Assembly: GCF_017355885.1 (NCBI RefSeq)
Contig: NZ_JAFEUU010000005.1
Span: 1-64,000 of the forward strand
DNA from: Sabulicella rubraurantiaca
GTDB taxonomy: Bacteria > Pseudomonadota > Alphaproteobacteria > Acetobacterales > Acetobacteraceae
Length of the DNA: 64,000 bases
Direction of reading: 5' to 3'
Below are positions 20,820-36,415 of the stretch, piece after piece. Each line of letters starts with the position of its first letter. The stretch's first letter is position 1. The position numbers were made by a program, and so were the translations under genes. Below the pieces are notes generated by a model that saw nothing but the letters and a program-made list of their open reading frames with translations, was not told the origin of the DNA and made no database searches.

Positions 20820-22076
20820 CTACCGGCATGACTCCGTCACGCCGCGCTCCAGATTGGTGAAGTGGTTGACGATGCAGATGGAGCGGTCGGCGATGTCGCG
20901 TGGCGGGCCTCTCTCGCGCTGACGTGCCGCTTCGGCCATCGCGCGCAGCTCCGGGCGCAGATCCACCCCCGCGCGCCACAAGCCGAAGGAAGCTGCCTGC
21001 ACCCCTGTCGCGAGGGTATGCGCGGTCTCGTAGAGGCGGTCCCGGCTATCTTCCGCTTCTGCGTCGATCGCCTCCGCGAGACGGACCACTTCGGCTGCGC
21101 GGGCACGCACGGCCTCTCCCGCTTCGGCTGGAGGCGGGTGGAGCTCGCCGACCAGATACATGGCCCGCCGCGCCGTCTCATGGTGGGGGGAGGCGATATG
21201 AGCGAGCAGCACCGGCACGAAGTCGGGCCGCTCGCGAACCACTGCGATCGCCTCCGCCTTGAGCGGAGCCGGCGAGGCGTAGGAGGTGCGGAGGAACCAT
21301 TCTTCGGTCGGGGCATCTGGGTCGGGACGGATCTGCTCGGCGGGCGGCGGAGGAGGAGGCTCAGGTTCCGAGCGCGGCGGCGGGACATGGCGGACGATGC
21401 GGAGACGCGCCTGCAGCGCCGGCTCGCCCTCCTCCACGCCGCTGAAGGGGCTGCGCCACGGTCCCCAATCGGCCTCGAGAGCGCGGGGACGCGAGGGCAC
21501 GTCGGTTGCGAAGTACTGTGTCCTCCCGCCGCGCAGCATGACACCGAGAGTGCGTGGCGCGGAGGTGACGTGAAGCAGGACTCGGCCCGGCACGATCCAT
21601 TGACTCTCCTCCTCTCGCGCTTCCTTCAGGAGGAGTGGCCCGATTGCGCCACGCTGCTGCCTACCGGAAGAGAGGGTGACGTAGGAGTCCCGGCTCGCCT
21701 CCGCGGGCAGGGTGGCGCCGGGGGGCAGCCTCACCTCGATGGCGAGATCCATGAGATCCCCGGCCACGAGCGGCGCGACATCCCTCTGCGCCCAGGCAAT
21801 GCCGCCGATGGCGGTGATCGGCAGGGCAACGGCGAGGAGCGCTGCGGCGAAGCCGCGCACCATGCCGCGGCGCCCGACGAGACCGCATACGATCCAACCC
21901 GTGATCGTTCCCAGGATGAAGGCGATCAGGATCCAGAGGATGACGAAGTAGCCCGAGGCTCCCTCGCGGCTCGGGACGTTGAGCCAGTCCACCGCGAGGG
22001 ATGCCATCACGCCGGCATAGGTCGCCGCGGCAAGGCCGATGACGGGGCCGAGCAGGAAGGTGAGAAGCCAGCGCAT
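20820..22076 (-). CDS. Uncharacterised membrane-anchored protein
   Basis: 418 residues, function not recognised. Three hydrophobic segments occupy the first 100 residues ([54 protein letters not shown]). A soluble, probably periplasmic, part follows with a proline-rich linker ([12 protein letters not shown], about 242-255) and a helical C-terminal half whose [21 protein letters not shown] resembles a HEAT-like repeat. A good RBS (GAGGGAG) precedes the ATG. It lies 85 bases upstream of ligD on the same strand, so co-transcription is possible but not evident. Confidence 0.65.
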
Positions 22077-22247
22077 CCGGCTCCCTCGAAGGCAGAAGGC
22101 GCGAGCAGCCTACCATGGCAAGGTCGGCAGGGCCAAGGATTGCTGGCCGGCGGGCCGTCCGGGTGGAGGTAGGGCACGATCCGCTGACGTGTCCCTGGCT
22201 GACCGATGGCGATGCAGTCATGGGCCAGCCCAGTGTCGGCGCATGAC

Positions 22248-23114
22248 TCAGCCCAGATCCTCGCTCGCCCTCATCTCCTCCATCAGCCAGTCGCGGAACG
22301 CCAGCGCGTCGGGACGCTGCACGCCACGCGGCATCAGCAGCCAGTAATGGTCTCCCGTCTCGGCGGCGGGTCCCGAGACGGGCACGAGGCGCCGTCTCCG
22401 CACATCCTCCGCGACGAGCTCGGGCGAGACGATGACGACCCCAAGCCCCTCGAGCGCCGCCTGGACGGCCAGGGAAGTGCTCTCGAACAGCAGCGGCGTC
22501 CCGTGCAGCACCACGCCGGACGCCGCGGCCCAGGTCGCCCAGTCCCCTGGCCGCACCCGGCTTCCCAGCAGCGAGTGCGGCGCGAGCCCGTCGCGCCGCG
22601 CCTCCCGCGCGAGGGCGGGCACCGCGAAGGGCTGGACGGCGAGGGCCTGCAGGCGGATCGCGCCGGGCAAACGGCTGCCGGTGCGGATGGCGGCATCCAC
22701 GGCATCGCGCGCGAAATCCACCGGCGCGATGGAGGCGCTGACCTCGATCTCCACACCCGGGTGCCGGGCCCGGAAGCGCGGAAGACGGGGGATCAGCCAG
22801 CGCATCGCCCAGGTGGTGTAGGCGCGCACGCGCAGCGGGCCGCTCGCCCGCCGCAACTCGGCCGTCGCTTCCTCCATGCTGGAAAATGCGGCGCGCAGCG
22901 CTCCGGCATAGCGTGCGCCTTCCTCCGTCAGCGTCGCGCTGTTGGCGCCGCGCAGCAGGAGCCTGTGGCCCAGCGCCGCCTCCAGCGCACGGATCCGCTT
23001 TCCCACCGCGGGCTGCGTCACGTTGAGCCGCGCCGCCGCGGCGGACAGGCTGCCCGTCTCCGCTACCAGGACGAAGGCGTGCAGGGCGGGGAGGGGCGGC
23101 AGGCTTGCGGCCAT
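22248..23114 (-). CDS. LysR-family transcriptional regulator (GcvA-like), candidate regulator of the thiolase-leuCDB unit
   Basis: A 288-residue LysR protein. The helix-turn-helix (about 8-66) reads PLPALHAFVLVAETGSLS, then AAARLNVTQPAVGKRI. The effector domain starts at PLRVRAYTTWAMRWLIPRL, the wording typical of the GcvA/AmpR-like subgroup, and continues with RHPGVEIEVSAS and a C-terminal VIVSPELVAEDV. The gene diverges from the large catabolic unit beginning at 23241, which it probably controls. There is no Shine-Dalgarno sequence before the ATG; instead a perfect palindrome (23117-23129) sits almost on the start codon. Confidence 0.92.
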   Translation of the reverse strand: MAASLPPLPALHAFVLVAETGSLSAAAARLNVTQPAVGKRIRALEAALGHRLLLRGANSATLTEEGARYAGALRAAFSSMEEATAELRRASGPLRVRAYTTWAMRWLIPRLPRFRARHPGVEIEVSASIAPVDFARDAVDAAIRTGSRLPGAIRLQALAVQPFAVPALAREARRDGLAPHSLLGSRVRPGDWATWAAASGVVLHGTPLLFESTSLAVQAALEGLGVVIVSPELVAEDVRRRRLVPVSGPAAETGDHYWLLMPRGVQRPDALAFRDWLMEEMRASEDLG

Positions 23115-23116
23115 GT

Positions 23117-23129
23117 GGTTAGTCTAACC
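23117..23129. promoter_or_regulatory. Perfect palindrome GGTTAG-T-CTAACC at the LysR start codon
   Basis: A 13-bp inverted repeat centred 9 bases upstream of the LysR ATG, in the LysR/thiolase intergenic region. Its position suggests an autorepression operator that also covers the place where an RBS should be. Confidence 0.4.
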
Positions 23130-23240
23130 CCAGGTTTGGGCACACCGCCAATCCTGACCTTGGGAAAAGCGCCGATTGGGTCCAGCCTCCCGCACCGAAG
23201 CCGGCGCTGCAGCGTCGGCGCGAGAGGAACGCCCAAACGG

Positions 23241-24401
23241 ATGAACGGCCAGGACACCCTTGCCGCGCCGACGGTCAGCACCCCCTGGAGCCTCCGGGAC
23301 AAGGTCGCCTTCGCCGGCATCGGCACGACGCGCTACGGAAACTTCCCCGAAACTGACAGCTACGGGCTGGGCTGCGAGGCGCTGAACGCCGCGCTGGACG
23401 ATGCGGGACTGCGCCCCTCGGACATTGACGGGCTCATCGTCAACCGCATCCCCAGCTATGAGCGCTTCGCGGAAATGATGGGAATCAATCCGCAATACTG
23501 CCTGCTGACCGAGGCGCCTGGCCGCTTCTCGGGCGTGTCGCTCGCGCTCGCGATGCAGGCCATCGCCACGGGCGCCGCGAAGACCGTGGCCCTCGTCTAC
23601 GGCAATAATGGCCGCTCCGTGCGGATGATGTATGGCGGCGGCGACAGCCAATGGAGCCCCTGGGGAATGACCAGCCCCGGCGCCATCCACGCGATGATGT
23701 GGCGCCGGCACATGCATGATTTCGGTACCACCCACGCCGATCTTGGGCCCGTTTCCGTCGCCTTTCGCAAGCATGCTTGCCTGAACCCCGACGCGGTGAT
23801 GCACGGCAAGCCCATCACGCTGGAGGACCACGCGAAGGCCCGCCCAATCTGCGAGCCGTTGAAGCTGCTCGACTACTGCCTCATCAACGATGGCGCGGTG
23901 GCGTGGATCCTCACCAGCGCGGAGCGCGCGCGCGACCTGCGCCGCCCGCCCGTGCTCGTCTCGGGCTATTCGCGGCAGGACCGCTTCTCCTATGGCAGCG
24001 CGCCGGCCGACGACTACTGGTACCCGACCCTCTCGGCCTGCCGCAGCGTCTATGACCGCGCCGGGTTCGGACGCGACGACGTGCAGGGCCTCGGCATCTA
24101 CGACAATTTCTCGCCGACTGTGATGTTCAGCCTGGAAGGGCTGGGCTTCTGCGGCCAGGGCGAGAGCGGCGACTTCGTGCGCGACGGCACGCTGGAACTG
24201 GGGACGGGGCGCTGGCCGACCAATACCTCCGGCGGACACCTGTCTGACAGCTACATGCAGGGCTGGGGCATCATCGCCGAATGCGTGCGGCAGCTGCGCG
24301 GCGATTGCGAAGGACGTCAGATCCCTGATGCCCGTGCGATGCAATACATCTGCGCGACGCATATCGCGCAAAGCATCCTGTTCCGGAGGGATGACGCATG
24401 A
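23241..24401 (+). CDS. Thiolase-like acyl-CoA acyltransferase (SCP-x/lipid-transfer thiolase family)
   Basis: 386 residues of the thiolase superfamily, of the kind usually paired with a DUF35 protein. Recognisable are FAGIGTTRYGNFP at the N-terminus, DIDGLIVNRIPSYE, ALAMQAIATGAAKTVALVYG, the C-terminal NTSGGHLSDSYMQGWG with the active-site His, and CATHIAQSILF. The usual nucleophilic Cys near residue 90 is not obvious: the region reads CLLTEAPGRFSGVSLALAMQ. Many SCP-x-like thiolases of this type lack it and act in CoA-ester metabolism without proven thiolysis. First gene of an eleven-gene unit; its stop overlaps the DUF35 start (ATGA). Confidence 0.85.
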   Translation: MNGQDTLAAPTVSTPWSLRDKVAFAGIGTTRYGNFPETDSYGLGCEALNAALDDAGLRPSDIDGLIVNRIPSYERFAEMMGINPQYCLLTEAPGRFSGVSLALAMQAIATGAAKTVALVYGNNGRSVRMMYGGGDSQWSPWGMTSPGAIHAMMWRRHMHDFGTTHADLGPVSVAFRKHACLNPDAVMHGKPITLEDHAKARPICEPLKLLDYCLINDGAVAWILTSAERARDLRRPPVLVSGYSRQDRFSYGSAPADDYWYPTLSACRSVYDRAGFGRDDVQGLGIYDNFSPTVMFSLEGLGFCGQGESGDFVRDGTLELGTGRWPTNTSGGHLSDSYMQGWGIIAECVRQLRGDCEGRQIPDARAMQYICATHIAQSILFRRDDA

Positions 24402-24808
24402 GCCTCCAGACACGTCCCAAGCCGGTGGTGGACAACTGGAACCGGCCCTTCTGGGAGGCGTGCGCGGAAGGGCGGCTGGTGCTGCAACGCTGCACGGAAA
24501 CCGGGAAGTGCTTCTTCCCGCCCGCCCCCGTCTCCCCCTACACCGGCCGGCCGGACTGGGAATGGATCATCGCCTCCGGCAAGGGCGAGCTTTGGTCCTT
24601 CGTGGTGTTCCACCAGAACTACTTTCCCGGGATGAAGGACGAGATCCCCTATCCCGTGGCGATGGTGAAGCTGGATGAGGGGCCATACCTCCTCACCAAT
24701 CTCGAAGGCATGAAGGCTGACGACGCAAAGATTGGCATGCGGCTCTCCGTCCGCTTCCCCGGTGGGCCGGAAGGTTTCGCCCTGCCGCAATTCGGGCCGG
24801 AGGAATGA
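24398..24808 (+). CDS. DUF35 OB-fold acyl-CoA-binding protein, thiolase partner
   Basis: A 136-residue protein that in characterised systems forms a complex with an adjacent thiolase-like subunit and binds acyl-CoA. An N-terminal helix (VDNWNRPFWEACAEGRLVLQRC) leads to a rubredoxin-like zinc ribbon and an OB-fold (GELWSFVVFHQNYFPGMKDEIPYPVAMVKLDE). Only two of the four expected zinc cysteines remain (CTETGKC, then FFPPAPVSPYTG without a second pair), so zinc binding is doubtful. Overlaps both neighbours: ATGA with the thiolase and the following gene's RBS. Confidence 0.85.
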   Translation: MSLQTRPKPVVDNWNRPFWEACAEGRLVLQRCTETGKCFFPPAPVSPYTGRPDWEWIIASGKGELWSFVVFHQNYFPGMKDEIPYPVAMVKLDEGPYLLTNLEGMKADDAKIGMRLSVRFPGGPEGFALPQFGPEE

Positions 24809-24810
24809 CG

Positions 24811-25590
24811 ATGCCGGAAGAGCTGATCATCGAGCGCGGCGAGGGCTGGGCGCAGATCCAGGTCAACCGCGAGGCACAGCGCAACGCGATGAATCGCGCC
24901 ACGCGCCAGGGCCTCCTGCGCGCCTTCGAGGAGCTGAAGGGCGAGGCGAAGGCCATCATCCTCACCGGCACCGGCGTCGCTTTCTGCGCGGGCATGGACC
25001 TGAAGGAGCGCGAGGCTGATCGCAAGGCGGGCATCGAAGGCGCGGGTGAGGAATGGATCGCCGTGAACATGGCGATCAAGCAGCACCCCTCCATCTTCAT
25101 CGCGGCGGTGAACGGGCTGGCGCTGGGGGGAGGCGCCACGCTGATCAATTGCTGCGACCTCGCCATCGCCAGTACACAAGCCAGCATCGGCTGCCCGGAG
25201 ATGGGCTTCTCCACCTATCCTGGCATGGCCGGCCCGGCGATCCAGCTTTCGGGCGTCACCCGCAAGCAGGCGGCGTGGCTGGTGCTGACCACCAACCGCA
25301 TCGACGGCGCCACGGCCGAGCGCTGGGGCATGGTCAACCAGTGCGTCCAGCCGGAGGCGCTGATCCCCACGGCGCAGGCCCTGGCGCGCAAGGTGGCGCA
25401 GTTTGACGCGGTGGCACTGGCCGAAAGCAAGAAGGCGCTGGACCGCATCCCAGCCTTCATCACCGACTGGCAGGAGGCGATGGATCACGGGCAGATGGTG
25501 AACCTCACCATCCGCTCGAAGACCAGCGCCCAGGCGGAGGGCAATGCTCGCTTCGCCGCCGGCATCAAGAACCCCGGCCAGGGCGCGTGA
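24811..25590 (+). CDS. Enoyl-CoA hydratase/isomerase family protein (crotonase fold)
   Basis: 259 residues. Oxyanion-hole blocks are ILTGTGVAFCAGMDLKE and AAVNGLALGGGATL, and the catalytic-glutamate region GCPEMGFSTYPGMAG carries one Glu at the hydratase position. The second hydratase Glu, usually in the AAVNG...E region, is not evident, so isomerase, hydrolase or decarboxylase activity is equally possible. Two ATGs lie 6 bases apart (24805, 24811); GGAGG at 24799-24803 gives correct spacing only for 24811. It belongs to the thiolase-leuCDB unit. Confidence 0.88.
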   Translation: MPEELIIERGEGWAQIQVNREAQRNAMNRATRQGLLRAFEELKGEAKAIILTGTGVAFCAGMDLKEREADRKAGIEGAGEEWIAVNMAIKQHPSIFIAAVNGLALGGGATLINCCDLAIASTQASIGCPEMGFSTYPGMAGPAIQLSGVTRKQAAWLVLTTNRIDGATAERWGMVNQCVQPEALIPTAQALARKVAQFDAVALAESKKALDRIPAFITDWQEAMDHGQMVNLTIRSKTSAQAEGNARFAAGIKNPGQGA

Positions 25591-25619
25591 ACCAGGAAGG
25601 CTGACAGACGCGGCGCGAA

Positions 25620-25643
25620 GCCCCGCCGGAGATAAGGCGGGGC
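25620..25643. other. Stem-loop between the enoyl-CoA hydratase and tctC genes
   Basis: GCCCCGCC (25620-25627) and GGCGGGGC (25636-25643) form a perfect 8-bp GC stem with the loop GGAGATAA. It occupies the 70-base gap in an otherwise overlapping operon, 7 bases before the tctC RBS. It may be a processing or attenuation element that gives the receptor gene its own transcript level. No T-run follows. Confidence 0.4.
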
Positions 25644-25660
25644 GCGCAGGAGGAAACGCC

Positions 25661-26620
25661 ATGAACGGACCCGCGATTGCCCGACGCGCCCTGCTGGCCG
25701 CCGCAGCGCTGCCTGCGGCCGAAGCCCGCGCCCAGCCCTTTCCGGAGCGGCCACTGCGGATGCTGGTCGGTTACGCGCCGGGCGGCACCACGGACCTCGT
25801 CGCGCGCGTCACGGCAGAGTACATGGGCCAAGATCTCGGCCAATCCGTCGCGGTGGAAAATCGCGGCGGGGCCGGTGGAGTGCCCGCGGCGCTCGCGATG
25901 CTGCAGGTCCCGGCCGACGGGCACGTGCTGATGCTGCAATCGGGCGGGCTGAATCAGGCCGAGGCGCTGGGCACGCCGCTGCCCTTCGACGCGGTGGCGG
26001 CCTTCGCGCCGGTCGGCCTTGTCGGCACCAGCGCCATCTCCCTGGTGGTGCATCCTTCCGTTCCCGCCACCAATCTGCGCGAGTTGCGGGAACACGTGCT
26101 CCGCTCGGGGCGGCCGCTGCGCGTGGGCTCGCCGGGGATCAGCCTAACCAGCCACCTCTACGGCCAGGAATTGGGCATCGAGGTGGAGGAGATCCGCTAC
26201 CGCGGCACCGGCCTCGTGGTGAACGACCTGCTGGCCGGGCGCGTCGAGGCCTATACCATCGCGTTGCCCGGCATCCTGACGCATATCCGCTCGGGCGGGC
26301 TGCGCGCCATCGCCATCGCCTCCACGACGCGCAGCCCGGTGATGCCGGAACTCGCGACGACGGTGGAGCAGGGCTTCCGCGGCATTATCAGCGCCTCCTG
26401 GTTCGGGGTCGTGGTACGTGCCGGCACGCCGCCAGAGCGGCTGTTGCGGCTGTCGCAATCCGTCTCGAAGCTGTTGGCCGACCCCGCCGTGCGCGCGCGG
26501 TTGAGCGAGGCCGGTGTTGATGTCGCACCCGAGACTAGTCCTGAGAGCTTCGATGCGCTGATCCGCGAGGACCGGGCACGCTGGGACCTCGTGGTGCGGC
26601 GGGGGAATCTTCGCCTGTGA
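25661..26620 (+). CDS. TctC/Bug-family periplasmic solute-binding receptor (copy 3)
   Basis: 319 residues. The signal peptide ARRALLAAAALPAAEARAQ is cleaved before PFPERPLRMLVGYAPGG. The ligand loop is GGTTDLVAR, then AVENRGGAGGVPAALAML, PADGHVLM, IRYRGTG and a less conserved second half (GFRGIISASWFGVVVRAGTPP). It differs from most copies in having YRGTGLVVNDLLAG without the preceding H-V-P. The RBS AGGAGGAAA at 25648-25656 is excellent. Its stop overlaps the GTG of the CoA-transferase gene. Confidence 0.9.
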   Translation: MNGPAIARRALLAAAALPAAEARAQPFPERPLRMLVGYAPGGTTDLVARVTAEYMGQDLGQSVAVENRGGAGGVPAALAMLQVPADGHVLMLQSGGLNQAEALGTPLPFDAVAAFAPVGLVGTSAISLVVHPSVPATNLRELREHVLRSGRPLRVGSPGISLTSHLYGQELGIEVEEIRYRGTGLVVNDLLAGRVEAYTIALPGILTHIRSGGLRAIAIASTTRSPVMPELATTVEQGFRGIISASWFGVVVRAGTPPERLLRLSQSVSKLLADPAVRARLSEAGVDVAPETSPESFDALIREDRARWDLVVRRGNLRL

Positions 26621-28665
26621 CCACTCCTGCTCCACTCGCTGGCCGACGCATCCTCGACCTTGGCGCCTTCTGCGCGCAGCGGCCGCACGCGCTGGCTGCC
26701 TCCATGGCGGCGCGGATCTGTGCCGGATACGGGGCGGAGGTGGTGCGGCCCCTCCCGCCGGGTGGCGAGCCCTTCTCCGCCGATGCGCCGCTCCTTCCGG
26801 ACGGCGCATCGGCGCTCGACCGCTTCATCAATGCGGGCAAGACGTCAGGCGCGCCCTCGGGAAGCTTCGACGCGGCGATCGGCGACCGCGTGGCGCTGGC
26901 GGCGCATGCGGCCCGCGTGAAGGTGAAGGCCTGCCTTTCCCTCTTTGGCCCCGGAGAGGAGGAGCCGCCGGTCACGGAACTCGGCGTGGCGGCGTTGTCG
27001 GGGCTGCTCGGCATCGTGGGTGAAGCAATGCCCGCGCCCCCATCGCGCCTCGCGGGGCATCAGGTGTCCTACGCAGCGGGGCTCGCTGCCGTCACCGCGC
27101 TGCTCGCGGCGCTGCATGGCAGCGGCGAAGAGGAGGTGGATGTCTCGCTCCTCGATGTCTGCGCCTGGCTGAACTGGAAGGTCGCGGCCGGAGTGCTGGT
27201 GATGGGCACGGCGCCCGAGCGCCGCGCCGACCGCGTCACCTGGTTCACCGTGCCCTGCGCCGATGGCCATGTCGCGCTGGTCTATCAGGAGAAGGACTGG
27301 CCGCCGCTGCGCGACCTGATCGGCGATGCGGGCCTCGACGATCCGCGCTTTGCCAGCAATGCGTCGCGTGGCGCTAATCGGGCTGCGCTGTTGGAGATCA
27401 TCGGCCCGTGGTTCGCCGCGCGCAGCCGCGCCGAGATCACCGCCGCCGCACAGGCGCGGCGCGTGCCGATAGGCCCCGTGTCGTGGCCAGAGGAATTGCT
27501 GGATGACGCGCAGTACCGCGCGCGCGGCTTCCTCGGGCCGGACGGAATGCCCAGCCTGCCCGTTTCCTGGGACGGGCAGCGTCTGCCGCTCCGCGCCACG
27601 CCCGGCGCGCCACCCACCCGCGCACCGCGCGGTGGCAAGCCGCTTTCCGGCGTGCGCGTCGTGGATCTTGGCTGGATCACCGCCGGGGCCGCCTCCTCCA
27701 CCATGCTGCTCGACCTCGGCGCCGATGTGGTGAAGGTGGAAGGTCCGGGCGCGCCGGACCCGTTCCGTATCTGGGATGGCGCGAAGGCCGGCGGCGATTG
27801 GTGGAATCACTGCCCCTTCTTCAACTTCACCAACCGCGGCAAACGCTCCGTCTGCGTGGACCTCAAGAACCCGCACGGGCGCGAGGTGGTACTGCGCCTG
27901 CTGGAAGGCGCCGACGTGCTGGTGGAGAATTTCCGCCGCGGCGTCCTCGCCTCCTTCGGCCTCGACGCGGCTGAGCTGCGCCGCCGCTTCCCGCGCCTCG
28001 TCATCGCCAGCATCTCCTCGCAGGGGGAGACAGGGCCAGATAGGCTGATGGTGTCCTATGGCTCGACGCTGGAGGCCACGGCGGGGCTTGCGGCCCTTTC
28101 CGGCGCGGGGGAGGCGCCAGTCATCACCGGGCGGGACGTGAACTACCCGGACCAGGTGGTCTGCCTCTTTGCCTCGGGTGCGATCATCGCAGCGCTCGAG
28201 GAACGGGAAAGGACAGGGCAGGGGGCGCATCTCGACCTGTCGCAGCGCGAGCTGACAAGCTTCCTGCTCGGCGAGGAGTTTCTGGCCGCGGCTGCCGGCG
28301 CGCCCTCGCCACGGCGCGGGAACCAAGACCCCGCCGAGCCCGGCGAAAGCCTGGAGCCGGACGGGAAGGGCGGCTGGCGCGTGGTGGCGCATGGCACGTC
28401 CCTGCCAGTGCGGAGTGGCACCGACCTCGCCGCCGCGGCGGATTTCGCGCGCGGCACAGCGGTGCTGCGCAGCCCGGACGGCACGCCCGCCAAGGGGATC
28501 CCTTTCCGCTTCCGGCGTCGCCCCCTGGTGGTGGAGGATTCCTGCCACGCGCTGGGGGCGGACAATGCGGCGGTGCTGCGTGAGGCCGGGTTCACTTCGG
28601 AGCAGATCACGCTGCTGGAGCAGGAAGAGGTGCTGGGGACGCGTCCGCGCAAGGCGGCGGGGTGA
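26617..28665 (+). CDS. Tandem CaiB/BaiF CoA-transferase (two-domain fusion)
   Basis: 682 residues made of two class III CoA-transferase domains. Domain 1 (about 1-330) begins GRRILDLGAFCAQRPH, is degenerate, lacks the usual N-terminal GP-x-x-T region, but keeps EVDVSLLDV with Asp175. Domain 2 (about 341-660) begins LSGVRVVDLGWITAG and has VVKVEGPGAPDPFR, NRGKRSVCVDLKNPHG, VLVENFRRG and AHLDLSQRE with Asp540. Class III enzymes normally work as interlocked dimers of one 400-residue chain, so a fused pair could build a pseudo-dimer in one polypeptide. GTG start overlapping the tctC stop (GTGA). Confidence 0.87.
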   Translation: MTTPAPLAGRRILDLGAFCAQRPHALAASMAARICAGYGAEVVRPLPPGGEPFSADAPLLPDGASALDRFINAGKTSGAPSGSFDAAIGDRVALAAHAARVKVKACLSLFGPGEEEPPVTELGVAALSGLLGIVGEAMPAPPSRLAGHQVSYAAGLAAVTALLAALHGSGEEEVDVSLLDVCAWLNWKVAAGVLVMGTAPERRADRVTWFTVPCADGHVALVYQEKDWPPLRDLIGDAGLDDPRFASNASRGANRAALLEIIGPWFAARSRAEITAAAQARRVPIGPVSWPEELLDDAQYRARGFLGPDGMPSLPVSWDGQRLPLRATPGAPPTRAPRGGKPLSGVRVVDLGWITAGAASSTMLLDLGADVVKVEGPGAPDPFRIWDGAKAGGDWWNHCPFFNFTNRGKRSVCVDLKNPHGREVVLRLLEGADVLVENFRRGVLASFGLDAAELRRRFPRLVIASISSQGETGPDRLMVSYGSTLEATAGLAALSGAGEAPVITGRDVNYPDQVVCLFASGAIIAALEERERTGQGAHLDLSQRELTSFLLGEEFLAAAAGAPSPRRGNQDPAEPGESLEPDGKGGWRVVAHGTSLPVRSGTDLAAAADFARGTAVLRSPDGTPAKGIPFRFRRRPLVVEDSCHALGADNAAVLREAGFTSEQITLLEQEEVLGTRPRKAAG

Positions 28666-28719
28666 GGTGATGGGCGGCCCGCCGGGAAAGGCGGCGCCGC
28701 GGGACGGAGGAAACAAGGA

Positions 28720-29706
28720 ATGGTGAGGACCAAGACGGGGCCCGGCCCCACACGCCGCGCCGCGCTGGCATTGGCCGGGATCACCGCGACGGCGGGCGGC
28801 GCGCGTGCACAGGGCTTTCCCAATCGGCCGGTCCGCCTCGTCGTGCCCTATCCGCCGGGTGGCGGCACGGACAATCTGGGCCGCATGGTGGCCCGCGCCC
28901 TGGGCGACCGGCTGGGCCAGACCGTGGTAGTGGAGAACCGGGGCGGGGCGGGGGGCAATATCGGCGCCGCGCTGGTCGCAACCTCGCCGCCCGACGGGCA
29001 CACGCTGCTCTTCACCGGGAACGGCATCGCCATCAGCGACGTGCTGTTCCGCAATCCCGGCTTCGACTGGAAACGCGACTTCACCCATATCTGCCGCTTC
29101 GCCAGCACGCCGATGCTGCTGGTGGTGAATCCTTCCGTGCCAGCGCGGAGCCTGGCCGAGTTCGTGGAGTATGCCCGAGCGCGGCCCGGCCGGCTCAACC
29201 ACGGCACGCCGGGGGCCGGTACGTCGCAGCACCTGGCCGCCGCGCTGTTCGACGACATGGCGGGGACGCGCATCATCCACGTCCCCTATCGCGGCACCGG
29301 GCCTTCCGTCGCGGGCCTGCTGAGCGGCGAGGTGGAGGTGATGTTCGCCTCGGTGAGCGCGGTGGAAGCGCTGATCCGCGAGGGACGCATCCGCGCCCTG
29401 GCCAACACCGCTGCGCGCCGCGCCCGCGCCTGGCCCGAGCTCCCCGCCATAGCCGAGGTCTTGCCGGGCTATGCGGCGGAGCTCTGGTACACCTTGGCCG
29501 CGCCGTCCCGCACGCCGGAGCCGGCCGTGGCCGCGATCGAGGCAGCTTCGCGCGAGGTGATGTCCGATCCCGCCTTCACCAGCGCCATCATGGAGCGCGG
29601 CTTCGATCCGGAGTTCCTGAGCCGCGCCGAACTGGAGCCCGCCTTGGAGGCAGATCACGCGCGCTGGGCACCGGCCCTGCGCCGCGTCGGCATCAGCGCC
29701 GATTGA
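28720..29706 (+). CDS. TctC/Bug-family periplasmic solute-binding receptor (copy 4)
   Basis: 328 residues with signal peptide TRRAALALAGITATAGGARAQ. The ligand loop PPGGGTDNLGR has Asn-Leu after the conserved Asp, and is followed by VVVENRGGAGGNIGAA, PDGHTLLFTG, HVPYRGTGPSV and AEVLPGYAAELWYTLAAP. AAGGA 3 bases before the ATG and GGAGG 11 bases before are both candidate RBSs. The gene is the second receptor of the same operon, so the unit may import two acids or one in two forms. Its stop overlaps the dehydrogenase start (TGATG). Confidence 0.9.
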   Translation: MVRTKTGPGPTRRAALALAGITATAGGARAQGFPNRPVRLVVPYPPGGGTDNLGRMVARALGDRLGQTVVVENRGGAGGNIGAALVATSPPDGHTLLFTGNGIAISDVLFRNPGFDWKRDFTHICRFASTPMLLVVNPSVPARSLAEFVEYARARPGRLNHGTPGAGTSQHLAAALFDDMAGTRIIHVPYRGTGPSVAGLLSGEVEVMFASVSAVEALIREGRIRALANTAARRARAWPELPAIAEVLPGYAAELWYTLAAPSRTPEPAVAAIEAASREVMSDPAFTSAIMERGFDPEFLSRAELEPALEADHARWAPALRRVGISAD

Positions 29707-30845
29707 TGGCACCGATCACCTATCTCAACCGGTTGCATCTCGGCGAGGGCGTCCTGCGCGAACTTCCCGCCGAGCTGGCACTGGCCGGGATAGAGAGGCC
29801 GCTTCTCGTCACTGACCCTGGCGTGGTGGCGGCTGGGCTGCTCGAGCCGGTGCTGGCGGCGCTGCCAGTGGGCATGGCAGTGGCGGTGCACGACGGCGTC
29901 CCGTCCAACCCGGATGAGGCATCGGTGCGCGCTGCGCTCCACGACTACCAAAAGCATCGGGCGGACGGGGTGATCGGGCTGGGCGGCGGATCGCCGCTCG
30001 ACCTGGCCAAGGCGGTCGCGCTGGCGGCCACCCATCCGGAAGGGCCTCTTGCGCGCTATGCATTGGTGGAGGGCGGATTGTCGCGCATCACCGCGGCTGC
30101 TGCGCCGGTGCTCGCCATCCCCACCACGGCGGGGACGGGCAGCGAGGTGAGCCGTGGCGCGCTGATCGTGATGGAGGATGGGCGCAAACTGTCCATCGGC
30201 TCGCCGCACCTGATTCCACGCGCTGCCTTCTGCGACCCGGAACTCACGGTCGGCCTGCCGCCGAGCCTCACCGCCGCGACGGGCATGGATGCGCTGGCCC
30301 ATTGCATCGAGACACTGTGCTCGCCGCGCGACAACCCGGTGGCGGATGCCATCGCGCGCGACGGGCTGCGGCGCGGCTGGATGGCGCTGCCGCGCGCCGT
30401 CGCCGATGGCGGCGACCGGGCGGCGCGGCGGGACATGATGCTGGCCTCGGTGCAGGGCGCACTCGCCTTCCAGAAGGGGCTGGGGGCGGTGCACGCGCTG
30501 TCGCACGCGCTGGGCGGACACGCTGCGAAGCCGCATCATGGCATGCTGAACGCGATCCTGCTGCCGCATGTGCTGCGCTTCAACGCCCCAGCCCTGGGCG
30601 CCGCCCTGCCCATCCTGGCCGAGGCAATGAGCCTGCCGGAGGATGCGGGTTCCATCTCGGGCGCCATCGCCGCGCTCTGCCTGCACATCGGCCTCCCCGC
30701 TGGCTTGGCGGCGCTGGGCATCGGGGAGGAAGACCTGCCCGCCGCCGCGCGCGGCGCGACGCGCGACCACCATCACCAGACCAATCCGCGCCCGGCGGGC
30801 GAGGCTGACTACCTCGCTCTGCTGCGCGAAGCCTTCGCGGCCTGA
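29706..30845 (+). CDS. Iron-containing (group III) alcohol dehydrogenase family protein
   Basis: 379 residues. NAD-binding N-terminal domain with VIGLGGGSPLDLAKAVAL (GGGS-x-x-D motif) and IPTTAGTGSEVSRGAL. The metal-binding helical domain has the Asp/His ligands in GMDALAHCIE and the paired histidines in GAVHALSHALGGH and KPHHGMLNA. The family includes 1,3-propanediol and 4-hydroxybutyrate dehydrogenases and maleylacetate reductase, all acting on small aldehydes, alcohols or oxo acids. The ATG at 29706 overlaps the upstream stop; an in-frame TTG lies one codon earlier. 12 bases before the leuC-like gene. Confidence 0.9.
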   Translation: MAPITYLNRLHLGEGVLRELPAELALAGIERPLLVTDPGVVAAGLLEPVLAALPVGMAVAVHDGVPSNPDEASVRAALHDYQKHRADGVIGLGGGSPLDLAKAVALAATHPEGPLARYALVEGGLSRITAAAAPVLAIPTTAGTGSEVSRGALIVMEDGRKLSIGSPHLIPRAAFCDPELTVGLPPSLTAATGMDALAHCIETLCSPRDNPVADAIARDGLRRGWMALPRAVADGGDRAARRDMMLASVQGALAFQKGLGAVHALSHALGGHAAKPHHGMLNAILLPHVLRFNAPALGAALPILAEAMSLPEDAGSISGAIAALCLHIGLPAGLAALGIGEEDLPAAARGATRDHHHQTNPRPAGEADYLALLREAFAA

Positions 30846-30857
30846 AAGGCAACCGCC

Positions 30858-32273
30858 ATGACCGACGCGCCTCGCACGCTGTTCGACAAGATCTGGGACC
30901 GCCACCGCGTGGTGGAGCGGGAGGACGGGCAGACGCTGCTCTATGTGGACCGGCACCTCGTCCATGACGGCTCCGCCCCCGCCTTCGAGATCCTTCAAAA
31001 GCGGGGCCTGAAGCTGCGCGCGCCGGAGCGCGTCTTCGCCACGCCTGACCATTATGTACCCACCGACACGCGCGATGTCGCCGCCATCGGCAATGACGAA
31101 CATCGCGGCATGGTGGAGACGCTTGAGCGCAACGCCGCGGATCAGGGCTTCCGCCTGTTCGGCCTGCGCGACGGCAATCAGGGCATCGTGCACGTGGTGG
31201 GGCCGGAGACGGGGCTGACCCAGCCCGGCATGGTCGTGGTTTGCGGCGACAGCCACACCTCCACCCACGGCGCACTCGGCGCGCTGGCCTTCGGCATTGG
31301 CATGACGGAGGTGGCGCATGTGCTCGCGACCCAGACGCTGTGGCAGCGCCGCCCGCACACCATGCGGATCACCGTGGAGGGCGCACTGGCCGAGGGGGTC
31401 ACGGCCAAGGATGTGATCCTGCACATCATCGCCACCATCGGTGCGGCGGGGGCGACGGGCCATGTCATCGAATACGCCGGCAGTGCGATCCGCGGCCTCT
31501 CCATGGAGGGCCGCCTGACGCTGTGCAACATGAGCATCGAGGCCGGTGCCCGCGCCGGGATGGTGGCGCCAGACGAGGCGACCTTCGCCTATCTCAAGGG
31601 CCGGCCCTACGCGCCCACGGGAAGGGAATGGGATGACGCGCTAGCGCGCTGGCGCGACCTCCGTACCGATGAGGGGGCGCGCTTCGACGCCGAAGTGTGG
31701 ATCGAAGCCTCCGCCATCGCTCCCATGGTCACCTGGGGAAACAGCCCGCAGGACGCGCTGCCGGTCCACGCCGCCCTGCCGGACCCTGAATCCGAGCCGG
31801 ATCCGGCGCGGCGCGAGGCCCTGGCCGAGACCTTCGCCTATATGGGCCTGACCCCCGGCGCGCCGCTGGCCTCCCTCGCGGTGGACCGGGTGTTCATCGG
31901 CTCCTGCACCAATGGGCGGATTGAGGATCTGCGCGCGGCCGCCGCCGTGGCGCGCGGGCGCCGCGTCGCCCCTGGGGTGCGCGCCTGGGTCGTGCCCGGC
32001 TCGGCGCCAGTGAAGCGCGAAGCGGAGGCGGAGGGGCTGGACCGCGTCTTCACCGAGGCGGGGTTCGAGTGGCGCGAGGCCGGATGCTCCATGTGTCTTG
32101 GCACCAATGGCGAGATCGGCGCGCCGGGCGAGCGCATCGCCGCCACCTCCAACCGCAACTTCCGAGGCCGGCAGGGGCGGGGGGTGCGGACGCATCTGAT
32201 GAGCCCGGCCATGGCAGCGGCGGCGGCGGTGATGGGCCGCATCGCCGATCTGCGCGAACTGACAGGAGGCTGA
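30858..32273 (+). CDS. 3-Isopropylmalate dehydratase-like large subunit (LeuC family)
   Basis: 471 residues of the aconitase superfamily. The three [4Fe-4S] cysteines are Cys350 (FIGSCTNGR), Cys410 and Cys413 (GCSMCLGTN). Other family blocks are [23 protein letters not shown] and [12 protein letters not shown]. It isomerises a 2-hydroxy diacid or triacid through dehydration. The motif after the cluster normally reads CLAMNPD; here it is CLGTNGE. Together with the unusual setting and the absence of leuA, this suggests a substrate other than isopropylmalate. Followed after 4 bases by its small subunit. Confidence 0.88.
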
Positions 32274-32277
32274 GGCG

Positions 32278-32877
32278 ATGGAGCCGTTCCGCACCGTCCG
32301 CTCCCGCGCCGTGCCCTTCGCGCGCGCCAATATCGACACGGACCAGATTTTGCCCGCGCGTTTCCTGTCCCGGCCGCGCGACGACAACCACGGCAACTAC
32401 CTGTTCCGTGACTTGCGCTACGCCCCTGACGGCACGGAGGTGCCCGAGTTTCCGCTGAACCGCCCGGAATGGCGGGATGCGCGCATCGCGCTCGGCGGGC
32501 GCAACTTCGCCTGCGGCTCCTCGCGCGAGAACGCGGTCTGGGCGCTCTATGACCATGGGGTGCGCTGCGTCATCGCGCCGTCCTTCGGCGACATCTTCGC
32601 CATCAACGGCACCAAGAACGGGCTTCTGCCCGTGGTCCTGCCCGAGCCGGACGTGCAGACGCTGATCGCCGCGGTCGAGGCCGACCCGGAAGCGGAAATC
32701 ACCGTGGACCTGCCTTCGCAGACCGTGACCGGGCCGGATGGCACCCGGTACCCCTTCGAGATCGATCCCTTCACCAAGCGCTGCCTCCTCGAAGCGCTGG
32801 ACGAGATCGCCTTCACCCTGACCCATGGCGACGACATCGCCGCCTTCGAGGCGCGTCACGAACGCCACAACCGATAA
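32278..32877 (+). CDS. 3-Isopropylmalate dehydratase-like small subunit (LeuD family)
   Basis: 199 residues, the normal size for LeuD. The substrate-binding swivelling domain shows ANIDTDQILPARFL, NFACGSSRENAVWAL and VIAPSFGDIFAINGTKNGLLPVVL. The usual N-C-x-K-N-G here has Gly for Cys. RBS GGAGG at 32265-32269 falls inside the end of the large-subunit gene, indicating translational coupling. Works as a heterodimer with the preceding gene product. Confidence 0.9.
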   Translation: MEPFRTVRSRAVPFARANIDTDQILPARFLSRPRDDNHGNYLFRDLRYAPDGTEVPEFPLNRPEWRDARIALGGRNFACGSSRENAVWALYDHGVRCVIAPSFGDIFAINGTKNGLLPVVLPEPDVQTLIAAVEADPEAEITVDLPSQTVTGPDGTRYPFEIDPFTKRCLLEALDEIAFTLTHGDDIAAFEARHERHNR

Positions 32878-32895
32878 GCAACGGGAGCAGACACC

Positions 32896-33972
32896 ATGCA
32901 CATCGCAGTCCTCGCAGGCGACGGGATCGGGCCGGAGGTCACGGCGCAGGCGGTGAAGGCGCTGCGCGCCCTCGCCGCCAACGGTCCGCAATTCGAGTTC
33001 ACCGAGGCGCCGATCGGCGACGCGGGCTTCGTGGCCGCGGGCGACCCCCTGCCGGCGGAAACCGCCGCCCTGGCCGTCAAGGCCGATGCGGTGCTGTTCG
33101 GCGCCGCCGGCACCTATGAGAGCGACCTGCGCCCGCCCGAGCAGCGCGGCGGACATGCCCTGCTGCGCCTGCGCAAGCAGATGGACCTCTTCGCCAATTA
33201 TCGCCCCGTCTTCGCCTTCCCCGAACTGCTCGGTGCCTCGACGCTGCGGCGTGAGGCGCTGGAAGGGGTGGACCTCGTGGTGCTGCGCGAGCTGACGGGC
33301 GACATCTATTTCGGCACCCCCCGCGGCATCCATGTCGAGAATGGCGAGCGCGTGGGCATCAACACCATGCGCTACACAGAAAGCGAGATCCGTCGCGTTG
33401 CCCATGCTGGGTTCCGGGCGGCGCGCGGCCGGCGCCAGCGCCTGTGCTCGGTGGACAAGGCCAATGTCCTCGAAGCCTCCGCCCTGTGGCGCGAGGTGGT
33501 GAACGAGGTGGCGCGCGACTACCCGGATGTGGAGCTGACCCACCAGTATGTGGACGCCGCGGCCATGCTGCTGGTGCGCCGCCCGCGCGACTTCGACGTG
33601 ATCGTCACCGGCAACATCTTCGGCGACATCCTCTCCGATGCGGCGGCGATGCTCACCGGCTCCATCGGCATGCTGCCCTCCGCCTCGATCAACGCGGCGG
33701 GGCAGGGGCTGTTCGAGCCGGTGCACGGCTCGGCGCCCGACATCGCAGGCGAGGACAAGGCCAATCCGCTCGCCTCCATCCTTTCGGCCGCGATGATGCT
33801 GCGCCTTTCGCTCGGCCAGCCCGTGCTGGCGGAGCGGGTGGAGAACGCGGTGCGCCGCGTCCTGGCCGAGGGGCTGCGGACCGCGGACATCATGGAGGAG
33901 GGCGCGCAGCTCGTCGGGACGGAAGCGATGGGTGATGCCGTGGCGCGGGAGATTCTTCGCCTCGCCGCCTGA
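32896..33972 (+). CDS. 3-Isopropylmalate dehydrogenase-like decarboxylating dehydrogenase (LeuB family)
   Basis: 358 residues of the beta-decarboxylating dehydrogenase family. Present are [11 protein letters not shown], the substrate-carboxylate arginine in [18 protein letters not shown], the catalytic SVDKANVLE, and metal-binding [12 protein letters not shown] and [12 protein letters not shown]. By eye-alignment the canonical GAVGGPKW loop is GAAGTYES, and the E-T-G-L-L segment that recognises the isopropyl side chain is G-H-A-L-L, so the glutamate is lost while both leucines remain. This points to a different 3-substituted malate. Last enzyme of the leuCDB block, 41 bases before a tctC gene. 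Confidence 0.88.
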
Positions 33973-34013
33973 GGGTGGGGCTACAAAAGATAAAACACAG
34001 GGAGGAACGAAGA

Positions 34014-34994
34014 ATGACCCAAAGCACCACCCGCCGCGCCGTCCTGACCGGGGCAGTTGCCGCGCCGGCGATTGGCCACGGCGCCTTCGCGCAATCCGAC
34101 TGGCCCAACCGGCCGATCCGCTGGATCGTCGCCTTTGCCGCGGGTGGGGCGGCCGATACCGCCGCCCGCGCCCTCGCCGCAGAGATGCAGGAAGCGCTGG
34201 GCCAGAACATCGTCATCGAGAACCGCACGGGCGGCAATGCGGTGGTCGCCGCCACCGCCACGCTGCAATCGCCACGCGACGGCTACACTTTCCTGGTGGA
34301 TGCGGCGAACCAGCTGACCAATCCGGTCCTGGTGCGCGACCTTCCCTTCGACTACCTCACCGCATTCACGCCGGTGACGCAGATCTCCTCCTTCCCACAG
34401 GTGATCGCGGTGAAGCATGACTTCCCGGCGCGCAGCCTGGCGGAGTTCATCGCCCTGGCGCGCCAGCGTCCCGGCAGCATCTCGGTCGGTACGCCGCCCG
34501 CGGCCGGCATGGCGCATCTCGCCCTCGCCGCCTTCGAGCACCGGGCTGGCATCCGGCTGGTGCACGCGCCGTATCGCGGCGGCGCGGACGCGGCCCGCGA
34601 CATCATGGCGGGCAGCGTGGATGCCGTGCTGATCACCACCTCCTCCATTCGTCCACCTGTCTCGGCCGGGCGGGCGCGCATCCTGGCGGTGACCAGCCTG
34701 GAGCGCGTGCCGTCCCTGCCGGACGTGCCGACCATCGCGGAATCCGGCTTCCCGGGCTTCGACCTCAACGACTGGAACGGGCTGTTCGCCGCCTCGGGCA
34801 CGCCGCACGCTATTGTGGAGCGCATGGCCGCCGCCGCCGGCGTGGCCGTGCGCGCGCCGGCTGTTCGGGCCCGGATGGACCCGGCGGGGGCGATCATGAT
34901 TGGCAACTCGCCCGAGGCCTTTGCCAATTGGATCGCCTCGCAACGGCGGGCGGCGGCCGAGGTGATCCGCACGGCTGGGATCACGCTGGGCTGA
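34014..34994 (+). CDS. TctC/Bug-family periplasmic solute-binding receptor (copy 5)
   Basis: 326 residues with a twin-arginine-like signal (TTRRAVLTGAVAAPAIGHGAFAQ). The ligand loop is AAGGAADTAAR instead of GG-[GT]-T-D, so the residue before the conserved Asp is Ala. Later blocks are IENRTGGNAVVAA, HAPYRGGAD and LPDVPTIAESGFPGF. RBS GGGAGGA at 34000-34006. It closes the long catabolic unit and is the third receptor in it. The next gene converges on it. Confidence 0.9.
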   Translation: MTQSTTRRAVLTGAVAAPAIGHGAFAQSDWPNRPIRWIVAFAAGGAADTAARALAAEMQEALGQNIVIENRTGGNAVVAATATLQSPRDGYTFLVDAANQLTNPVLVRDLPFDYLTAFTPVTQISSFPQVIAVKHDFPARSLAEFIALARQRPGSISVGTPPAAGMAHLALAAFEHRAGIRLVHAPYRGGADAARDIMAGSVDAVLITTSSIRPPVSAGRARILAVTSLERVPSLPDVPTIAESGFPGFDLNDWNGLFAASGTPHAIVERMAAAAGVAVRAPAVRARMDPAGAIMIGNSPEAFANWIASQRRAAAEVIRTAGITLG

Positions 34995-35071
34995 GAGAAA
35001 GGGATGGCGTCGGGTGGCGGCGCGGCTAGGGCGTTCCAGCGCAAGCGGCTGCACGCCCCGCCGGGCGCCAG

Positions 35072-36064
35072 TCACGCCGTGATCCCTGCCGCGCGCACCA
35101 CCTCAGTCCAGTTCGCGATCTCGCGCTGCATCCGGGCCGTGATGGCTTCCACGGGAAGCGGCGTCACGAGGGCTCCTGCCTCGAAGGCGCGCTGCCGCAA
35201 TCCGGGGTCCGCGAGCACCTCGTTCAGCTTCGCTGAAACGAGCCGCGTGATGTCCTCGGGCGTTCCGCGCGGCGCGTAGAGAGCGAACCAGACATTCATG
35301 TTCAGGTCGGGCAGCCCCTCCTCCGCGGCGGAAGGGATATCGGAAAGCCCGGGGTGCCGCTCGTTAGAACTGACGGCGAGCGGCCGCAGCCGGCCATCGC
35401 GCACCAGCGGCACCAGCGGCGGCGGCGAATTCAGGTAGAACTGGACCCTTCCCGCGACGAGGTCACGAATGGTCTCCCCCGTGCCCCGGTAGGGGACATG
35501 CAGCAGGTCGATGCCGGTTCGGATCTTCAGCAACTCCACGCTGAGGTGGTGCATGGAGCCATTCCCCGCCGATGCGTAGGTCAGCTGCCCAGGGCGCTGC
35601 CTAGCGTAGGCGACGAACTCGCGCATGGTCGAGACGGGGACCGTCGGGTGCGTCACGAAAAGCTGCGGCGTGTCGCTCACCTGGCCGATGGGGACGAAGT
35701 CCCGCAATGTGTCGATCTGGCCCAGGGAGCCGAGCGCGGCGCGCCCCGTCATGGTGCCGCAATATCCCATCAGCAGCGTGTGGCCGTCTGGGCGCGCCTG
35801 AAGCACCGCGTTCAGCCCGACCACATCATTGCCGCCGGGTCGGTTCTCCACCACGACCGACGTGCCGAGCGCACGGCCGAGCGGCTCGGAGATAAGCCGG
35901 GCACTGAAATCCGTTCCACCGCCTGCGGGGGAGGGAACGATGATCGTGATTGGCCGCGAGGGGTAGCCGCCCTGGGCCAGAGCCAGCGAAGGAGCCGCCA
36001 GCGCCCCGGTCGCTGCAGTGGCCGCGGCCAAGAGGGCACGGCGGCCCCGATACTTCTCGAACAT
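35072..36064 (-). CDS. TctC/Bug-family periplasmic solute-binding receptor (copy 6)
   Basis: 330 residues. Signal peptide FEKYRGRRALLAAATAATG ends at SLALAQGG. The mature part has YPSRPITIIVPSPAGGGTD, VVVENRPGGNDVVG (Asn-Asp in place of Ala-Gly-Gly), PDGHTLLMGYCG and HVPYRGTGETI. GGAGGAAAGA directly before the ATG at 36064 rules out the longer frame. Unaccompanied by enzyme genes; divergent from copy 7 across a 351-base spacer and convergent on copy 5. Confidence 0.9.
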   Translation of the reverse strand: MFEKYRGRRALLAAATAATGALAAPSLALAQGGYPSRPITIIVPSPAGGGTDFSARLISEPLGRALGTSVVVENRPGGNDVVGLNAVLQARPDGHTLLMGYCGTMTGRAALGSLGQIDTLRDFVPIGQVSDTPQLFVTHPTVPVSTMREFVAYARQRPGQLTYASAGNGSMHHLSVELLKIRTGIDLLHVPYRGTGETIRDLVAGRVQFYLNSPPPLVPLVRDGRLRPLAVSSNERHPGLSDIPSAAEEGLPDLNMNVWFALYAPRGTPEDITRLVSAKLNEVLADPGLRQRAFEAGALVTPLPVEAITARMQREIANWTEVVRAAGITA

Positions 36065-36415
36065 TCTTTCCTCCCTGCGAAAGCGGCGGCGTGTCGGCGC
36101 CCGCTCCCAGCTGCGAATTGCCGGCATCTTTGCGCAGCGCTCGCGCTACTTCCAACGGAAAGAGTGCGTCTCGATGGTGCCTTGTCCATCGCTCCGCGCC
36201 GCTTCCGTCGCATCACATGAAAGGCGAGCGATGGGGCTGCTTCGGATCAGGCGCGTCGTCGCATAGATGAGGCGCTTGAAGTGCCAACAATCCCCGCATA
36301 GCGTGATCGCGACGGCGCGGGACTTCCATCGCGCTTTGGAAGGAAACGGATGTGATGCACGCCGCGGCGAGGCGTGTGACGCATTGCGGCTTCCGCACCC
36401 ATGCAGGAGGCTTCC
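36065..36415. other. 351-base divergent intergenic region between two tctC genes
   Basis: No credible gene: the open frames here have no RBS, no homology pattern and no consistent codon use. The region must hold the promoters of both receptor genes. It contains a 9-bp perfect inverted repeat pair (36186-36194 and 36226-36234), and the pair GCATCACAT (36210-36218) and ATGTGATGC (36350-36358). Confidence 0.5.
36186..36234. repeat. Inverted repeat CCATCGCTC-N31-GAGCGATGG
   Basis: Two perfect 9-base arms (36186-36194, 36226-36234) separated by 31 bases, about 120 bases upstream of the start codon of copy 6 and 180 bases upstream of that of copy 7. It may form a long hairpin or be a pair of half-sites for a dimeric regulator. 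Chance is not excluded for a region of this size. Confidence 0.3.

Follow-up and report, generated by a model that had tools for sequence, protein, structure and literature searches.

What do homologues of leuC, leuD and leuB do in a gene run that has no leuA? The question is raised by a 64,000-nucleotide stretch of the Sabulicella rubraurantiaca genome (contig NZ_JAFEUU010000005.1, positions 1 to 64,000; hereafter the window), in which a plus-strand run of eleven genes at 23241-34994 has a divergent LysR-type regulator gene ahead of it. A sequence-only reading had named these genes, their order and the regulator, and open reading frame (ORF) calls and Pfam matches agree with it. It also proposed that the LeuC-, LeuD- and LeuB-like proteins (the trio; LeuCD for the first two) process an imported or coenzyme A (CoA)-derived branched malate. 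Our best reading, by analogy with the maleate hydratase/D-malate route, is that LeuCD and LeuB may turn an imported or derived relative of maleate or malate into a 2-oxo acid, and the trio is probably catabolic. The genome is a draft of 5.02 Mb (99.2% complete, 64 contigs), with the window on its contig 58. G-numbers denote genomes compared and L-numbers loci compared.

Leucine genes elsewhere in the genome

A search of the genome returned five aconitase-family genes, eight genes of the isocitrate/isopropylmalate dehydrogenase family and three HMGL-like genes. A canonical leuC-leuD-leuB set is present on contig 11, where ORF reading places trmD- and rplS-like genes ahead of it. The leuA that the sequence-only reading noted as missing from the unit is found on contig 12 (827 bits, against an NCBIfam cut-off of 729), and this LeuA and the contig 11 LeuC, LeuD and LeuB all score above their NCBIfam cut-offs. 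A second complete leucine set (leuA with leuCDB) is thus present elsewhere and the window trio is not the sole leuCDB; it is therefore a paralogue, free for other work. The window LeuC, LeuD and LeuB also exceed the cut-offs of the NCBIfam leucine models (LeuB scores 453.9 bits with the leuB model TIGR00169, cut-off 353.2), so automatic annotation cannot separate them from leucine genes.

A separate LeuB clade with a changed residue

The named loci used for comparison are the best 80 of 596 stretches from a LeuB alignment search; most carry an ordinary-type LeuB and serve as controls, and within this set the closest named relative of the window LeuB, from an Acetobacteraceae metagenome-assembled genome (MAG), is 76% identical. 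In a LeuB tree of 95 rows, 16 rows including the window form a single clade (support 100/95), which branches beside 68 ordinary LeuB, mostly beta- or gammaproteobacterial (support for that group 84/93). The genome's own canonical LeuB is not sister to the clade. Its members from the same genome, genus and family are the window copy, a second copy on contig 32, copies from five other genomes of the genus, and G026; the other rows come from the Acetobacteraceae MAG, Rubritepida, Rhizobium, Afifella, a Burkholderiales MAG, Variovorax, Paraburkholderia and Caballeronia.

The clade is marked at residue 86 of the window LeuB, which we take to be Glu87 in T. thermophilus numbering, in the substrate/NAD pocket. 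Across the 95 rows this position is Glu in 77, Gly in 16, Lys in one and Gln in one, and all 16 clade rows have Gly. With added relatives, Gly is present in 27 of 27 clade members versus Glu in 74 of 74 ordinary LeuB, the latter mostly beta- or gammaproteobacterial and the count excluding L019 (Lys), the second gene of L018 (Gln), and L152, L130 and L131 (all Glu). The Gly served in part to define the group; the tree is one check on this, and the other is the 11 of the 27 members that were fetched, by identity to the window LeuB, after the Gly mark had been noticed. The accessible text of PMC8468904 and PMC3565319 contains nothing on this position. At the clade loci LeuC and LeuD are changed as well, at many columns that vary little or not at all in ordinary LeuC (25 versus 64 rows) and LeuD (25 versus 67 rows). 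The sequences favour a changed substrate for the trio, without naming one.

The trio shares its three families and its gene order with the LeuC/LeuD/LeuB of leucine biosynthesis, from which it differs in its separate LeuB clade, the loss of Glu, its importer and iron-type alcohol dehydrogenase (FeADH) neighbours and the lack of an adjacent leuA. By the two features tested (Gly86 and a second leuCDB in the genome) it does not resemble an ordinary set of leucine genes.

A further trio on contig 32 (3.9-8.0 kb, L017) has the order leuB-leuC-leuD-TctC, and its LeuB belongs to the window clade with the same Gly. Another leuCDB-like trio, at 383-386 kb of contig 11 (L019), has the Lys at the LeuB Glu position, and its LeuB pairs in the tree with that of a Methylobacterium plasmid. 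By ORF reading, acyl-CoA dehydrogenase-like and CoA-transferase-like genes adjoin the L019 trio.

Importers at the clade loci

An importer gene is found within about 6.5 kb of 25 of 26 clade members versus 2 of 77 other LeuB loci, many of the contigs in the comparison being cut, and the two positive controls both owe their hit to one TctC gene close to this genome's set on contig 11. The 25 loci comprise 18 with TctC, five with NMT1 and two with MFS only. L133 is the sole clade member without an importer and L189 was too short to use; two rows were held apart from the count, L152 with importers and L019 without. The models employed (TctC, NMT1-type receptor, MFS, TRAP and PotD-type receptor) were built from loci in hand, and eight clade members contributed to them (the window, L057, L064, L141, L142, L143, L190 and L191).

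The earlier reading counted three import receptors in the unit as support. Three TctC genes are indeed present, but they carry little weight, since at least 150 TctC genes are present genome-wide (150 of 216 candidates were scored) versus four TctA permease genes, which leaves orphan receptors in very great excess. More telling is that the importer type varies by lineage while the LeuB clade is constant. A TctC3-like gene lies behind leuB in L047-L050, L052, L061 and L181-L188. Since the smallest recurring unit among the relatives is the trio with an importer, LeuCD probably acts on the imported acid or on a compound close to it.

Two separable modules

The eleven-gene unit is a join of two separable modules with separate evolutionary lives. 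Module A consists of LysR, Thl, DUF35, Cro, TctC1, CoAT and TctC2, and module B of FeADH, LeuC, LeuD, LeuB and TctC3 (Table 1). Mapping of the window proteins onto the relatives' loci places the full A and B order in G016 and G006 and, up to a contig end, in G019; among the relatives examined the join is found in the window's genus only, and the modules lie apart in most others. Module B with FeADH, and with no module A upstream, is seen in G007, G015, G005 (cut inside LeuC), G252 and G226, and without FeADH in G056, G122, G147, G165 and G035, while G196 and G219 are cut too close for FeADH to be called. A LysR-LeuCDB-MFS arrangement is present in G027 and G116 (by ORFs; the MFS of L191 by Pfam).

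Conversely, module A occurs without a window-type LeuB in G243, G055, G025, G179, G008, G199 and G245 of the family sample. Within the genus this is true of G012, in which Thl is 98% identical and window positions 22268-28666 are kept at 87% nucleotide identity, the similarity ending at the CoAT stop codon. On a Chelativorans plasmid, genes for LysR, a thiolase-like protein (74%), DUF35 and a crotonase are ordered as in module A. LysR often travels with module A, a match being adjacent in L047, L049, L194-L198, L201, L212 and L214 and not found there in L192, L193, L199, L200 and L202-L204. TctC2 stands beside CoAT in L192-L203 and not in L204, and in L212 another TctC takes its place.

Co-occurrence was counted with the window genome included. 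Among 200 genomes of the family, LeuB (at least 75% identity) is present in 10, Thl (at least 79%) in 16 and both in nine (Fisher p ~1e-10), and in eight of these nine A and B are on different contigs or 1.1 Mb apart. Among 21 genomes of the genus the numbers are seven, eight and six (p = 0.003). A control gene from the window, the amidohydrolase at 39819, is present in five genomes including the window's (identity 76% or above), of which four also have module A and two LeuB. Since the control gene also keeps company with module A, shared ancestry inflates the association of A with B, which weakens this association as proof of one pathway.

Partner genes and chemistry of module B

Enzymes of the LeuCD and LeuB families take an acid of the maleate or 2-alkylmalate type through a 3-alkylmalate to a 2-oxo acid. 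The window FeADH scores 505.5 bits with NF058672 (4-hydroxybutyrate dehydrogenase, cut-off 500), and its counterparts score 514.7 (L048), 511.2 (L181) and 410.7 (L057). Other partners accompany the trio elsewhere. L142 (Paraburkholderia), L143 (Caballeronia) and L064 (Rhizobium, by ORF reading) share an operon of leuC-leuD-leuB, an ABC importer, an SDR, an FAH-family protein, a second receptor, SMP-30 and LysR; the best model for the FAH-family protein of L142 is 2,4-didehydro-3-deoxy-L-rhamnonate hydrolase, below its cut-off (421 versus 500). Variovorax has an FAH-family gene about 6 kb from the trio, and in G026 module B is accompanied by an amidohydrolase_2 protein and a molybdenum hydroxylase with cytochrome c. 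These variable partners (FeADH, SDR, the FAH-family protein, SMP-30 and the G026 set) fit feeding steps of lactone opening and hydroxy-acid oxidation, and suggest by analogy that the cis-dicarboxylates may derive from butenolides or lactones.

Related LeuCD pairs without an adjacent LeuB lie beside importers and ICL/PEP-mutase-family lyases on Skermanella, two Azospirillum and Sulfitobacter plasmids, and these loci also point to LeuCD making malate-type acids for breakdown, the lyase offering a second means of splitting a malate. In L151 (Sulfitobacter pontiacus plasmid) and L148 (Azospirillum ramasamyi plasmid) LeuCD is found beside hydantoinase A/B, a cysteine hydrolase (of the isochorismatase family in L151), an ICL/PEP-mutase lyase and a TRAP importer, and this could be a route for cyclic imides, for example maleimides, through substituted maleates to malates. 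Another use of LeuCD that looks catabolic is seen in L145 (plasmid pl4 of Sphingobium sp. AntQ-1), where a CoA-transferase, hydroxymethylglutaryl-CoA lyase, leuC, leuD and ribB lie near a Tn3-family transposase.

Comparison with known systems

Liu et al. reportedly described in 2015 a maleate hydratase, HbzIJ, in the direct hydrolysis branch of the gentisate pathway. HbzIJ is said to be a LeuCD-like hydratase of the aconitase superfamily whose D-malate passes to a D-malate dehydrogenase, a LeuB-family oxidative decarboxylase, and the window similarly pairs LeuCD-like proteins with a LeuB-like partner, a comparison made at the level of families. No gentisate genes were recognised by Pfam in the unit and its scanned neighbours, which are part of the window genes. 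A LeuCD-family hydratase that makes a malate for breakdown also operates in nicotinate fermentation (DmdAB, 2,3-dimethylmaleate hydratase, with dimethylmalate lyase). The DmdAB-lyase pairing resembles the LeuCD and ICL/PEP-mutase lyase loci of Skermanella, Azospirillum and Sulfitobacter, but DmdAB is of the short archaeal type, and the window uses LeuB and not a lyase.

The Pseudomonas itaconate/branched dicarboxylate cluster (Ict-Ich-Ccl) has, like the window, a CoA-transferase, a hydratase, a lyase and a transporter, and acts on branched C5 dicarboxylates; the accessible main texts of PMC9875883 and PMC12290011 contain no LeuC or isopropylmalate term. Among the matches listed from the open PubMed Central library, which lacks most subscription papers, none describes importer-linked LeuCDB catabolism.

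A proposed route and its alternatives

A plausible scenario, which we hold to be rather probable, is that the region is a two-module catabolic operon. The families, the paralogy, the clade, the modules and the active-site residues can be read from the sequences, whereas we infer every substrate, the direction of each reaction and any flow of metabolites between A and B. TctC3 would import, or module B would otherwise receive, a cis-dicarboxylate or its 2-hydroxy form, with maleate, citraconate, (R)-citramalate or a larger alkyl homologue as candidates. LeuCD would hydrate or isomerise this acid to a 3-substituted D-malate, which LeuB with NAD+ would oxidise and decarboxylate, supplying central metabolism with a 2-oxo acid; FeADH would probably convert a related omega-hydroxy acid to the semialdehyde feeding the dicarboxylate. 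In module A, CoAT would activate a second acid with CoA, Cro would hydrate it, and Thl with DUF35 would cleave the product by a retro-aldol reaction to an acyl-CoA and a carbonyl compound.

Several observations weigh against a catabolic role for the trio. The three proteins pass the leucine models and so may act on isopropylmalate. The ordinary LeuB used as controls are taxonomically skewed, as noted, and since the importer models derive from importer types seen at clade loci, other importer families near the controls would have been missed. With at least 150 TctC genes in the genome, a lone TctC neighbour means little and is often expected by chance. Clade membership does not always bring a trio (around L119 neither LeuC nor LeuD was matched, and at L072 nothing beyond a distant LeuC), and an importer-linked LeuB of another lineage, in L152 from a Methylobacterium plasmid, keeps Glu, so the change of Glu is not needed for an importer context. 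Module B has no aldehyde dehydrogenase to complete the reaction begun by FeADH. In LeuD, a change from HAPWAL to NAVWAL was considered as a catabolic mark and dropped, since 3-isopropylmalate dehydratase small subunits have HAVWAL (3h5h) and HAAWAL (2hcu); the Pro-to-Val change is not diagnostic because the 3h5h LeuD shares it.

Other explanations must account for the same observations. It is rather unlikely that the eleven genes form one linear pathway, in which CoA-ester cleavage by module A yields an acid finished by FeADH, LeuCD and LeuB. A and B are contiguous in the window, G016 and G006, and module A accompanies LeuB in nine of 10 genomes in the family and six of seven in the genus, the window genome counted, but the eight other family genomes with both have them on different contigs or 1.1 Mb apart, they are apart in G007 of the same genus, the close relative G012 has A alone, and the control gene's company with module A (four of five) indicates that the association is partly shared ancestry. 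The sequence-only reading's treatment of the eleven genes as one pathway is not supported, as the modules are separate in most relatives examined. Its proposal for the trio is strengthened by the second leucine set, the importer-linked LeuB clade and the changed position, although a CoA-derived substrate becomes only one option because A and B evolve separately.

We regard it as unlikely that the trio is a spare isopropylmalate isomerase and dehydrogenase set that aids leucine synthesis or uses isopropylmalate imported from other organisms. Isopropylmalate chemistry would require just these enzymes and an importer, and all three proteins exceed the leuC, leuD and leuB cut-offs; however, the genome has a full leucine set elsewhere, which makes leucine biosynthesis an unlikely role, a conserved residue is changed in every one of the 27 clade members, and the FeADH, SDR, FAH, SMP-30 and CoA-enzyme partners are not known to take part in leucine synthesis. 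A role in isoleucine synthesis via citramalate, where LeuCD and LeuB act on citramalate and 3-methylmalate, is very improbable, since none of the three HMGL-like genes that the search of the draft genome returned fits citramalate synthase: one is LeuA and two pass the hydroxymethylglutaryl-CoA lyase model.

The catabolic reading can be extended beyond the window, tentatively and at somewhat less than even likelihood, to the whole LeuC/LeuD/LeuB subfamily. Labelled as leucine biosynthesis, this subfamily may form the heart of a hitherto undescribed catabolic pathway in Acetobacteraceae, Rhizobiaceae and Burkholderiales, in which the importers differ, lactonase, alcohol-dehydrogenase and hydrolase modules interchange, and cis-dicarboxylates (citraconate, (R)-citramalate and larger alkylmaleates, for example from butenolides) would end up as 2-oxo acids. 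Members of the window's genus would have the pathway fused to a retro-aldolase CoA-ester module. If so, the clade labelled leuB, leuC and leuD is misannotated, genome-based predictions of leucine synthesis and carbon use are wrong for these organisms, and LeuB position 86 provides a one-residue mark for spotting such cases. There would then also be a testable route for citraconate and (R)-citramalate, which, according to the accessible text of PMC9875883, P. putida carrying PA0878-PA0883 did not use.

The predicted aldolase of module A

The first gene of the unit was read earlier as thiolase-like. The fold is that of a thiolase, but the thiolase catalytic residues are missing. Its closest solved structure is Ltp2 (6ok1), followed by other thiolase-fold proteins, and Tyr287 (in a YDNF motif) and Tyr338 align with both catalytic Tyr residues of Ltp2; no Cys is present in the aligned thiolase nucleophile region. 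Both Tyr are kept and the Cys is missing in 18 of 18 module A relatives, and the window and all 18 have Asn for the motif His (YDNF and not YDHF). TcLtp2 uses Tyr294 of its YDHF motif together with Tyr344, and CtSal has Cys at the position of the motif His (PMC12329534, accessible text). The retained Tyr pair, the missing Cys and the overlapping DUF35 gene together predict that Thl and DUF35 form a retro-aldolase, and module A likely specifies CoA transfer, hydration and retro-aldol cleavage.

The Ltp2-ChsH2 and Sal-Shy steroid side-chain aldolases likewise combine a thiolase fold with a DUF35 partner, and Thl keeps both Ltp2 Tyr residues. Module A differs in having YDNF, in its crotonase and tandem CoA-transferase partners, and in its scanned neighbours, which point to no steroid substrate. 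The tandem nature of the CoA-transferase, proposed earlier, is confirmed (residues 118-338 match PF02515 positions 132-361 and residues 343-574 match positions 1-227). None of the seven matched NCBIfam family III models reaches its cut-off with CoAT (best 201.5 bits versus 750), nor does any of the 25 listed of 72 NCBIfam matches to Cro.

Gene layout and neighbouring genes

Intergenic spacing in the unit ranges from 4-base overlaps (Thl/DUF35, DUF35/Cro, TctC1/CoAT and TctC2/FeADH) to a 54-base gap. Two starts are uncertain: the Thl ORF opens at 22206 and the ATG at 23241 was adopted, and the first ATG of TctC1, at 25544, falls inside Cro, and 25634 was adopted. No sigma-70-like promoter or plus-strand terminator-like site was found within 22900-35300, which says little at about 70% GC.

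Table 1. Genes of the unit and its divergent regulator
Gene	Coordinates	Strand	Module	Description	Evidence
LysR	22248..23114	-	A	LysR-type regulator, divergent	Pfam HTH_1 and LysR_substrate
Thl	23241..24401	+	A	thiolase-fold, predicted Ltp2-type retro-aldolase	PF22691; best PDB match 6ok1 (Ltp2)
DUF35	24398..24808	+	A	DUF35/ChsH2-like zinc-ribbon OB-fold partner of Thl	PF01796, PF12172
Cro	24805..25590	+	A	crotonase-family enoyl-CoA hydratase/isomerase	PF00378
TctC1	25634..26620	+	A	tripartite tricarboxylate transporter receptor	PF03401
CoAT	26617..28665	+	A	tandem family III CoA-transferase	PF02515 in both halves
TctC2	28720..29706	+	A	receptor, with module A in most relatives	PF03401
FeADH	29703..30845	+	B	iron-type alcohol dehydrogenase, 4-hydroxybutyrate dehydrogenase family	PF00465; NF058672
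LeuC	30858..32273	+	B	LeuC-like large subunit	PF00330; PRK12466 737 bits, leuC 699 (NCBIfam)
LeuD	32278..32877	+	B	LeuD-like small subunit	PF00694; leuD model above cut-off
LeuB	32896..33972	+	B	LeuB-like dehydrogenase, Gly86 for conserved Glu	PF00180; leuB model above cut-off
TctC3	33975..34994	+	B	receptor directly behind leuB	PF03401 above cut-off; phmmer: BugD and other TctC structures

Downstream of the unit, at 35072-48546, the window contains six more TctC genes (35072-, 36401+, 41946+, 42951+, 46587- and 47569-) together with other catabolic genes, namely two alpha/beta hydrolases, a crotonase, a GntR, two amidohydrolase_2 proteins, a family III CoA-transferase and a PEP-mutase-family protein. 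Upstream, long ORFs of 418 and 436 amino acids occupy both strands at 20820-22172, with no Pfam match on either. Ku-ligD-like genes adjoin module B in L048 and L059, with a ligD identity of only 48-49%, and the flanks retrieved for G016 and G006 gave no match to this neighbourhood. The window itself encodes a multi-domain DNA ligase D (LigD, by Pfam) on the minus strand at 18218-20788.

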